DNA of 30,229 nt from a virus. Shown here in pieces: positions 8,123 through 29,003 of the stretch. The stretch lies in IMG/VR virus record IMGVR_UViG_3300013093_000187, positions 1 to 30,229 of that record. One strand, 5' to 3'. The position numbers were made by a program, and so were the translations under genes. Numbering within the stretch: position 1 is the stretch's first letter; each line of letters begins with the position of its first letter. The notes beneath the pieces were generated by a model. It made no database searches. It was not told the DNA's origin and worked only from the letters and a program-made list of their open reading frames with translations.

Positions 8123-8953
8123 ATGAAAAAACTATTACTTTCCCTGTTTGTAGCTCTAGTAGCATTAACAGGTACACAGGCATTTGCCTGGACTCAACGT
8201 GCTCCACAGGATCCACAAACATGTAAAGTGCATGCTCCCTATGGATTTCCACAAACAGCAGGTGTACAACCTATTTGCCGTCAAGCATATCTAGTAGGTT
8301 ATGATGCCGCTGCCAAACTTCCAAAATATGTAACTTATGAACTTCTTCCTCAAAACGCTCTTGGCTGTGTGGCTCGTACTAATGCTTTTGTTGCCGATCA
8401 GTCTGTTTCTGGTGGTGCTACACCTGCTGATTATGTTGGTACTGGGTACGATAAAGGACACATGTCACCGGATGGCGATTTATCTTGGGATACGCAAGTA
8501 GAGTTTGAAAGTTTCCTAATGACTAACATGAGTCCGCAAGCTGGTTCATTGAATCGTGGTATTTGGAAATTGTTAGAAACAAGTGTACGTGGTTGGGCAG
8601 TACAACGTAACCAAAGCTATACAGTTTATGTAGGCGGTGTATATGGTGCTGGCGATAAAACTATTGGTAAAGGTGTTGTGGTTCCACATGGTTTTTATAA
8701 GATTGTTATCAACAATCAAACTAAAGAAATTGCCGGTTGGGCATTCCCACATGTTGCTCCTTATCCAAATTTAGGCAATGACTTAACCAAATTCCGTTTG
8801 CCAATCCAACAGATTGAACAAACAGCTGGTGTACAGTTTGCTTTTCCACAAGGCGCAGTTGAACTTGCTCCCGGTAAAGAATGGCCAGTAGACTTCGGAG
8901 CGTTGACCAATGCCAAACGTCAAAAATGTGGCGCTAACGCATCAGCCGACTAA
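8123..8953 (+). CDS. Exported DNA/RNA non-specific endonuclease (NUC1/NucA family)
   Basis: 276 residues. A classic signal peptide (MKKLLLSLFVALVALTGTQAFA, split here after MKKLL only for reading; predicted cut after AFA near residue 22) sends it to the periplasm or outside. The beta-beta-alpha-metal active site is visible: DKGHM at 110-114 (general base H113; the family usually has DRGH), then TNMSPQ with N135, and LNRGIW with N144 as the expected Mg ligand. Four cysteines in the first half of the mature protein could form disulphides. Family members cut DNA and RNA without sequence preference. In a phage it may degrade extracellular or periplasmic nucleic acid, incoming rival DNA or lysate DNA. 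An RBS-covering hairpin (8092-8120) suggests restrained translation. Confidence 0.85.
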   Translation: MKKLLLSLFVALVALTGTQAFAWTQRAPQDPQTCKVHAPYGFPQTAGVQPICRQAYLVGYDAAAKLPKYVTYELLPQNALGCVARTNAFVADQSVSGGATPADYVGTGYDKGHMSPDGDLSWDTQVEFESFLMTNMSPQAGSLNRGIWKLLETSVRGWAVQRNQSYTVYVGGVYGAGDKTIGKGVVVPHGFYKIVINNQTKEIAGWAFPHVAPYPNLGNDLTKFRLPIQQIEQTAGVQFAFPQGAVELAPGKEWPVDFGALTNAKRQKCGANASAD

Positions 8954-8962
8954 TCCCAATGA

Positions 8963-9182
8963 CTATCCAGTCTATCCTGAAGACGATGGGTCGGATAGGC
9001 CTAGGAATCCTTACAGCCCTGTATGAAGGGCTGACAAGATTAGGATGCGGGCTAGCTGGTATCCCGTATCCGCATTAACCCCACCTTAGGGACCGTTGTC
9101 GTCACGGGGGCGAGCTTGCTTGCCCAGGCGTCCGCGCAATTGAACTTCCAGGCGTTACTTGGAGCCGGATAAAGTAACCGGC
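8963..9182 (+). ncRNA. Candidate structured non-coding RNA, GC-rich
   Basis: The gap between the endonuclease and the next gene has no credible gene, yet is far richer in G+C than its surroundings (101 of 180 bases for 9001-9180, against 20 of 60 for 9241-9300). It holds consecutive stems: CTATCC/GGATAG (8972-8977, 8993-8998), CAGCCCT/AGGGCTG (9014-9020, 9027-9033), GGATGCGGG/CCCGTATCC with one G-U (9043-9051, 9063-9071), CCGT/ACGG (9093-9107), GGGCGAG/CTTGCCC around CTTG (9108-9125) and GCCGG/CCGGC (9164-9168, 9178-9182). No stem is followed by a T tract, so they are not intrinsic terminators. I recognise no known RNA family. It could be a trans-acting RNA or the leader of the 9198 gene; strand is assumed from its neighbours. 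Confidence 0.5.
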
Positions 9183-9197
9183 ACTAATAAATACACT

Positions 9198-10184
9198 ATG
9201 CGAGCCAAAGAATTCAGCCAACCTAAAAAAAGTCTAGTCATATTTGATATAGACGATACTCTACTTCATACCACTGCCAAAATCAAAGTGGTTAAAGATG
9301 GGCATGTTGTTCGAGAATTAACCAATCAGCAATTTAACAACTACGAATTACAGCCAGGCGAAGAGTTTGATTTTGGTGAATTTAGAGATGCTGAAAAATT
9401 CAATAGAGAAAGTAAACCTATTGAGCCCATGGTTAAAAAATTAAAAACCATATTAAATCATTCAGCTAACAGTGAAGTTATCATGCTTACTGCCCGTGCT
9501 GATTTTGATAACAAAAATTTATTCTTAAAAACATTCAGCGATCTTGGTATTGACATGAGTCGTGTACATGTACACCGTGCTGGAAACTTGCCTGGTGATG
9601 CTATACCTGCTGAAAAGAAAGCGGTGTATGTTCGTAGATATGCCGACACTGGCAAATATGATCACATTCGTTTATATGATGACAGTCGCAGTAACTTATC
9701 AGTGTTTAAAGAATTAAAAAACGAATATCCCAATATAGACTTTAGAGCAATCTATGTAGGACCAGAAGGTAATACAGCACTTCACGAGAGTAGAATTCCA
9801 ATGAAACATCATAAAGATAACTTCATGGAAATGTTTAAAAAGTTTTTACCATTGGCTATGCGTTATATTGGATTGGATCATTTACCTCAAATAAAATTTG
9901 AAGCACACATACATGACAGTCATCAACCCACTTTTGGCAAATATGAAAATGGCGAACACGTACTTTATGTGGCTCTAATGAATCGTCACCCTAATGATAT
10001 TTTACGCACAGTAGCTCATGAGTTAGTACACTATAAACAAGATACTGAGCATGAATTAGAACATGACAGTGGACGTACAGGCAGTCCACAAGAAAATCAA
10101 GCACATGCTATTGCTGGCATCGTGATGCGGCATTTTAATAAAAATTATCCTGAATACCTAGGCAGTCATCCTATTACAGATTAA
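9198..10184 (+). CDS. HAD-superfamily phosphatase fused to an HExxH zinc metallopeptidase-like domain
   Basis: 328 residues from ATG 9198 (MRAKEF); an in-frame TTG at 9159 lies inside the structured intergenic stretch and is a poorer start. Residues ~12-195 are a HAD domain: motif I FDIDDTLL (D17, D19), motif II MLTARAD (T98), a lysine at 140-141 and motif IV LYDDS (D161, D162), an arrangement like phage polynucleotide 3'-phosphatases. Residues ~215-328 hold TVAHELVHYKQD (H274, E275, H278) with downstream E299 in QENQAHA as a likely third zinc ligand. Each half is recognisable; the join is unusual. The N terminus resembles T4 capsid-targeting peptides. A bidirectional terminator follows directly. 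Possible roles are nucleic-acid end repair plus proteolysis of a host or head protein, not proven. Confidence 0.78.
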   Translation: MRAKEFSQPKKSLVIFDIDDTLLHTTAKIKVVKDGHVVRELTNQQFNNYELQPGEEFDFGEFRDAEKFNRESKPIEPMVKKLKTILNHSANSEVIMLTARADFDNKNLFLKTFSDLGIDMSRVHVHRAGNLPGDAIPAEKKAVYVRRYADTGKYDHIRLYDDSRSNLSVFKELKNEYPNIDFRAIYVGPEGNTALHESRIPMKHHKDNFMEMFKKFLPLAMRYIGLDHLPQIKFEAHIHDSHQPTFGKYENGEHVLYVALMNRHPNDILRTVAHELVHYKQDTEHELEHDSGRTGSPQENQAHAIAGIVMRHFNKNYPEYLGSHPITD

Positions 10185-28537: not shown

Positions 28538-28609
28538 ATGGCAAGAGCAAGAAGTTTGAAGACAATGGCTAAACGTGCGGCTAAACGTCACGTTAGTAAA
28601 CGTCGTTAA
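28538..28609 (+). CDS. 23-residue Arg/Lys-rich basic peptide
   Basis: ATG 28538 follows AAGGAG (28525-28530) at 7 bases. The peptide is MARARSLKTM followed by AKRAAKRHVSKRR: eleven or so Arg/Lys/His of 23, no acidic residue. It resembles the tails of ribosomal or histone-H1-like proteins, suggesting RNA, DNA or ribosome binding. It sits 25 bases after the strong promoter and ends directly before the tmRNA acceptor piece, so message and pre-tmRNA share a transcript. Its size means coding status rests on the Shine-Dalgarno and the composition. Confidence 0.55.
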   Translation: MARARSLKTMAKRAAKRHVSKRR

Positions 28610-28611
28610 GA

Positions 28612-28930
28612 ATTGAGCAAGTCTCAATAGTAAGACTGTATGAAGTAGATTGAAAAGGATTCAAGACGCCGGTTCGAATCCGGCCAGGTCCACCATAAAG
28701 TATATTTCCCCTCTATGTTGAAACGCTAGAGACTTTGTTAGTATACTTTATAATGGGCCTGCTCTGGTAATCGATTGGGTCAAGAGTAATGAAATGGACA
28801 GTCCGGCAATGTAGAAGCCGTTAGGATTGGGGCGACCCGATCGAAGACACAAAAAAGTAACTGCAAACGCAGCCAATGATGAGGTATTTGCCCTAGCGGC
28901 ATAATCTCCGAGGCAGTTATGCCTTGTCAC
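28612..28930 (+). ncRNA. ssrA: Circularly permuted (two-piece type) tmRNA
   Basis: The 3' half comes first. T arm: GCCGG (28668-28672), loop TTCGAAT, CCGGC (28680-28684); acceptor strand CAGGTCC (28685-28691), discriminator A, CCA ending at 28695. An intervening segment (28696-28754) has TAAAGTATA paired with TATACTTTA (28742-28750). The 5' half then starts with GGGCCTG (28755-28761), pairing fully with CAGGTCC and placing G3-U70, the alanyl-tRNA synthetase identity pair. TCTGGTAATCGATTGGG aligns with the D-loop analogue of tmRNA (TCTGGATTCGACGGG in E. coli). After AAAAAAGTAACT, resume codon GCA (28863) opens a tag ANAANDEVFALAA ending in TAA (28902-28904), then hairpin GAGGCA/TGCCTT. Order acceptor piece, spacer, coding piece is that of permuted tmRNAs. 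Acceptor piece begins with ATTGAG/CTCAAT hairpin. It rescues stalled ribosomes with SmpB. P2 and PK1 not drawn with certainty. Confidence 0.9.
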
Positions 28931-28941
28931 CAAAAATAGCA

Positions 28942-28970
28942 GAAAGGTCCTTGACGGGACCTTTCTTTTT
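28942..28970 (+). terminator. Intrinsic terminator of the tmRNA unit
   Basis: GAAAGGTCC (28942-28950) and GGACCTTTC (28957-28965) pair perfectly over 9 bp around TTGACG, followed by TTTTT. Confidence 0.93.
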
Positions 28971-28979
28971 GTGTATAAT
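28951..28979 (+). promoter_or_regulatory. Sigma70 promoter whose -35 is the terminator loop
   Basis: TTGACG (28951-28956), exactly the six-base loop of the terminator, then 17 bp, then TATAAT (28974-28979). It would drive the metallopeptidase gene starting at 29004. Confidence 0.7.
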
Positions 28980-29003
28980 AGATACACACTTAGAAAGGAA
29001 TCC

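Follow-up and report, generated by a model that had tools for sequence, protein, structure and literature searches.

The window analysed here, the whole 30,229-nt stretch of an IMG/VR virus record with genes for tail fibre, ribonucleotide reductase and tmRNA, contains a structured RNA of about 110 bases at 9076-9184 on the plus strand. Comparison with its relatives suggests that this RNA is probably a class-1 member of a phage-specific family of structured noncoding RNAs, which is found about once per large T4-like phage genome and would act in trans on a conserved partner of late infection. An earlier note on this DNA had proposed a conserved structured RNA with at least five consecutive stems in about 220 bp without a gene, at 8963-9182. 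The structured RNA is supported by homologues with abundant compensatory changes and consecutive hairpins do exist, but their number and the coordinates shrink to 9076-9184 because the 5' half of that interval consists of two small frames. The features are as follows.

8910-9026, plus strand: ORFa, a small protein with start ATG 8910 or GTG 8928, overlapping the 3' end of the nuclease gene; 78 distinct relatives
8959-9078, plus strand: ORFb, a 39-aa frame (MTIQSILKTMGRIGLGILTALYEGLTRLGCGLAGIPYPH*) over the 5' half of the interval first reported; frame kept in several relatives
9076-9184, plus strand: class-1 structured RNA, whole element, with covariation in alignments A1 (50 sequences) and A3 (100 sequences); 99.8 bits and E 9.5e-21 with covariance model R1, partly by construction, as the window's identical sequence (L001) is among the 50 sequences of R1
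9080-9091, plus strand: P1 hairpin, 9080-9082 with 9089-9091, around the invariant CCUUAGG (9084-9090); 97.6% of cells paired, as CG, UA, AU or UG
9093-9107, plus strand: P2 hairpin, CCGU (9093-9096) with ACGG (9104-9107); 80.6% of cells paired, compensatory types among them, in an imperfect part of the alignment
9108-9125, plus strand: optional hairpin GGGCGAG-CUUG-CUUGCCC, with a few A/U instead in many relatives
9127-9146, plus strand: conserved segment GGCGUCCG...AAUUGAACU, with a predicted pseudoknot of 9133-9135 with 9152-9154
9147-9163, plus strand: P5 hairpin, whose loop bases 9152-9154 are in the pseudoknot; 99.4% of cells paired, compensatory changes in all five pairs
9164-9182, plus strand: P6 hairpin GCCGG-AUAAAGUAA-CCGGC with a conserved loop; 99.4% of cells paired, compensatory changes in 5/5 pairs
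9186-9193, plus strand: AATAAATA, a T4-late-promoter-like site directly 5' of the HAD-peptidase ATG (9198); a putative promoter by its sequence

Fold, covariation and surroundings of the RNA

Class 1 was defined by a match to R1 with P1, P2, the pseudoknot, P5 and P6 and by the conserved CCUUAGG, GGCGUCCG and AUAAAGU, and all of these are present at 9076-9184 of the window. At least 200 relatives, and well over that number, are present in IMG/VR and form two linked classes with chimeras between them; the exact 20-mer of 9127-9146 occurs in 65 IMG/VR viral stretches. In A1, which has 50 distinct copies, compensatory changes were found in 11 of the 16 predicted pairs, 96.2% of the cells pair on the stated structure, and the covariation score of 0.477 (0.134 for shuffled alignments) was reached by none of 500 shuffles and was destroyed by sliding the pair partners. 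A3, which consists of 100 copies from 100 loci obtained by a wider pattern search and R1, showed 94.5% paired cells, a covariation of 0.647 against 0.170 for shuffled alignments and 505 cells with both sides changed against 154, in an alignment fitted to R1, whose structure is without the pseudoknot. The pseudoknot position at columns 113-135 of A3 is occupied by UA (32), CG (24), AU (19) and GC (8). A GCG/CGC helix proposed by RNAalifold at 68-77 of A1 was dropped in favor of this pseudoknot.

P1, P2, P5 and P6 together contain 116 G-U cells against 5 A-C cells, and the terminator T tracts downstream of relatives are on the plus strand; therefore, the RNA is the plus strand. Fold energy was rejected as evidence: z was -2.1 on the plus strand and -0.95 on the minus strand for the whole 256 nt, and an uninformative -0.41 for the RNA alone. 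Judged from the alignments, the class-1 covariation is decisive, and it is on this covariation in relatives that the case for the RNA rests, as energy alone would not suffice.

The 5' end of the RNA lies at or in the stop codon of ORFb. Thus, the DNA described as gene-free is not so at 8963-9078, which is inside the overlapping ORFa and ORFb, and a reading frame through the region, which the earlier note had named as a finding against an RNA, is present in the 5' half only. The two halves recur separately among relatives of the nuclease and HAD genes. ORFa ends in ...NPNDYPVYPEDDGSDRPRNPYSPV*, its relatives finish in YPVYPEDDGxDRxRNPYSPV or a close variant, and the RNA is situated within 250 nt downstream in 31 of the 78 distinct relatives. 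ORFb relatives share LTALYEGLxRFGxGxxGIPYP as read by eye, and neither frame matches Pfam or PHROGs. The tiny YPVYPEDDGxDRxRNPYSPV protein is conserved across many of these phages (window 8910-9026 and many other loci).

The raised G+C content was confirmed: it reaches 0.55 per 200 nt at 8950-9149 and 0.60 in the RNA itself, whereas the flanks have 0.33-0.45. The stems of this window are also, as noted before, not followed by T tracts: no terminator-like site was reported at 9076-9200, where no G+C-rich hairpin with a T run was found. The 3' end of the RNA is just upstream of AATAAATA, which adjoins the HAD-peptidase ATG. TAAATAC sites that resemble late promoters were seen by eye only 3-8 nt 5' of start codons without a Shine-Dalgarno sequence, at window 9186-9200 and in related loci, an arrangement that suggests leaderless late mRNAs. 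Elsewhere in the window, a tmRNA gene is located at 28603-28995 on the plus strand (tag ANAANDEVFALAA) and matches the permuted and betaproteobacterial tmRNA models of Rfam.

Classes, carriers and novelty

In some related phages, the slots of class 1 are occupied by another RNA (class 2), whose first hairpin contains CCUUAGGAC and whose 3' end carries AAAGUGAGC. A hairpin loop of this RNA pairs with the 3' tail, and changed variants of the pair occur as GCCAC/GUGGC, GUUAC/GUAGC and GCCCC/GGGGC. In the class-2 alignment A4 (model R2, 100 copies), 75.7% of the cells pair, and the score of 0.423 against 0.144 was reached in 0 of 500 shuffles. A likeness of the class-2 GGCUGCU loop to the 530 loop of 16S rRNA was rejected, as rare loop variants change jointly with the 3' tail. 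The two classes were never found at separate sites within one record, though the model of one class matches weakly at the site of the other in three records, and L418 and L421 are chimeras of a class-1 5' half and a class-2 3' half. As far as these records tell, classes 1 and 2 are one family, mutually exclusive and linked by chimeras. L463, L466 and L480, which have CCUUAGG(A/G)CCGUUA...ACGG with an intrinsic terminator close behind, represent a possible third class.

With regard to copy number, 30 of the 34 records with a length of 95 kb or more have exactly one RNA of class 1 or 2. Two copies occur in G012, where the sites lie on opposite strands, and in G067, and two records are without a copy. 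This count is partly ascertained, as many of the records were fetched for holding the RNA and may be fragments, and for one record (L483) it comes from separate scans. Among the records first reached only by homology of the nuclease or HAD proteins, 11 of 13 carry the RNA. Records of 350-370 kb mostly have one copy, and a dispersed repeat was ruled out by the copy number. In 16 of the 27 records tested, T4-like gp23 exceeded the curated cut-off. The carriers thus appear to be large bacterial viruses of the T4-like kind, sampled from the environment, and almost all have exactly one copy. T4 and ten other selected phage genomes (cyanophages, Xanthomonas and Stenotrophomonas phages and others) gave no R1 or R2 match, so the RNA is not a general T4 feature. 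In cellular genomes, a pattern search gave at least 119 loci, and R1 matched none of the 93 that were examined.

That the RNA belongs to no recognised class was upheld. Rfam 15 gave no family over the window RNA or related loci at the gathering threshold or at E 10 beyond chance matches; in a further scan tRNAs were the only matches, and none of the ribozyme models matched the window RNA. BLAST against INPHARED (50,697 phage records) returned chance matches only, and our literature searches of open papers found no description of the RNA. The manA and wcaG RNAs of T4-like cyanophages probably regulate particular metabolic genes (Weinberg 2010, PMC2864571). They resemble the window RNA in being structured and in having been found by comparative genomics in T4-like phages and in metagenomes of aquatic origin, whereas the window RNA has no Rfam model match, is single-copy and has varying neighbors. 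The packaging RNA of phi29 is a phage noncoding RNA present once per genome. It is similar to the window RNA in size and copy number, but no Rfam model matches the window RNA. T4 rnaC and rnaD, which are stable RNAs, are likewise small RNAs of a T4-like phage; they were rejected as homologues, as their sequences are without the CCUUAGG motif and R1 and R2 match nothing in the T4 genome. Noncoding RNAs of phages are nothing new in general; this class appears to be new as an RNA family, not as a mechanism.

Transcription and possible function

The genes around the RNA vary widely: at about 215 loci, the upstream proteins fall into 62 clusters and the downstream ones into 65. The largest group consists of 51 class-1 loci with regA (PF01818) upstream and Hsp20 (PF00011) downstream. 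In this lineage, the RNA often has a late promoter resembling those of T4 upstream, together with an additional 5' domain that looks like a pseudoknot. Exact TATAAATA was found within 45 nt upstream in 11 of 58 hsp20 loci against 10 of 3000 random windows, and an intrinsic terminator is directly 3' of the RNA in 45 of the 58. The RNA of the regA-hsp20 lineage is thus apparently a free-standing late noncoding RNA gene, a complete transcription unit as predicted from its signals. The second domain, 5' of the class-1 RNA, consists of GGGAUGGGAAC followed by two interleaved stems (L233:3563, L311:1708, L315:2865 and 26 more); its mean pseudoknot length is 4.0 against 3.27 (at most 3.72) with shuffled partners, and 21 of the 29 have TATAAATA, GATAAATA or AATAAATA at most 40 nt upstream. 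The window lineage has the order coding genes, RNA and late-type promoter, and a promoter of the RNA's own was not recognised there.

We favor trans action because the RNA stays single-copy while its neighbor genes change. In the regA-hsp20 lineage the RNA would have a late promoter of its own and stop at the intrinsic terminator, and in the window lineage it would be made as the 3' tail of the transcript of the preceding genes. The invariant loops CCUUAGG and AUAAAGU may then bind a conserved late-infection partner, either a protein or the ribosome, and this binding could lead to control of late expression or host takeover. A bolder version, which we put forward tentatively, is that a large group of uncultivated T4-like phages shares this RNA as a core noncoding RNA, single-copy, late and trans-acting, whose two-domain form (5' pseudoknot and class-1 domain) has its own late promoter, and that it reprograms late infection via a conserved machine, possibly the ribosome.

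The position of the RNA also fits a cis-acting 3'-UTR element, which would end the upstream mRNA or protect it and would shield it from the promoter that follows. For 43 of 96 class-1 and 66 of 97 class-2 elements, the start of the RNA falls within -8 to +10 nt of a stop codon, whereas random positions do so in 51 of 600 and 45 of 600 cases, respectively, and a late-type promoter or terminator often follows the RNA. However, any intergenic element of a compact genome falls near a stop codon, a generic role at 3' ends predicts many copies where the records of 350-370 kb mostly hold one, the window lineage is without a T tract, and the invariant loops are left unexplained. We therefore regard this explanation as unlikely, though the best of the alternatives.

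If the RNA were a leader of the gene that follows it, for example a riboswitch or attenuator of hsp20, this would account for the order of RNA, terminator and hsp20 at the 58 class-1 loci and for the downstream genes that lie on the same strand as the RNA (190 of 213). The other 23 are on the opposite strand, and the diversity of the downstream clusters also speaks against it. Moreover, a late-type promoter stands between the RNA and the gene in the window, where AATAAATA precedes the HAD-peptidase ATG but read-through from upstream is possible, and in other class-1 loci: outside the hsp20 lineage, 45 of 76 class-1 elements have TAAATA within 75 nt downstream, as do about 20 of 600 random windows. 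A leader function is thus improbable.

Slightly less probable still is an antisense RNA to helices 69-71 of 23S rRNA. Many class-2 elements are exactly complementary to H69/H70 over 10-15 nt (up to ACCUUAGGACCGUUA), often together with the adjacent complement UUCGCUACC, and the matches of 14-15 nt in L489 and L478 are reached by 0-0.3% of shuffles, L489 surpassing 300 of 300. The complementarity was noticed post hoc, though, and the 11-nt match of L333 is reached by 4% of shuffles; the window and class 1 match 8-9 nt, the 9 nt of the window being reached by 78% of shuffles, and no rRNA match exists for the class-2 loop variants GAGUCGUGCC. Complementarity conserved beyond chance was not found for the window RNA, and partial antisense pairing of class-2 loops with these helices is a weak lead.

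PeSLs, the mobile regulatory cassettes of T4-type phages, were reportedly described by Arbiol in 2010 as intergenic stem-loop elements beside promoters. Such cassettes are expected in several copies per genome, each as a promoter with a simple stem-loop. They resemble the window RNA in being intergenic stem-loops beside promoters in T4-type phages, and a recombination cassette with gene shuffling as its main role would suit the many different neighbors and the chimeras L418 and L421, but it is very improbable for a family of pseudoknotted RNAs of about 95-110 nt with a complex fold, strong covariation and, as a rule, one copy per record.

Finally, with this RNA, T4-like phages that are known almost only from environmental sequence gain a structured RNA class that is strongly supported by comparison. 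The covariance models, the predicted pseudoknot and the invariant loops are now open to testing. A single-copy RNA with changing neighbors suggests a trans function that has been missed by phage annotation centered on proteins and tRNAs.
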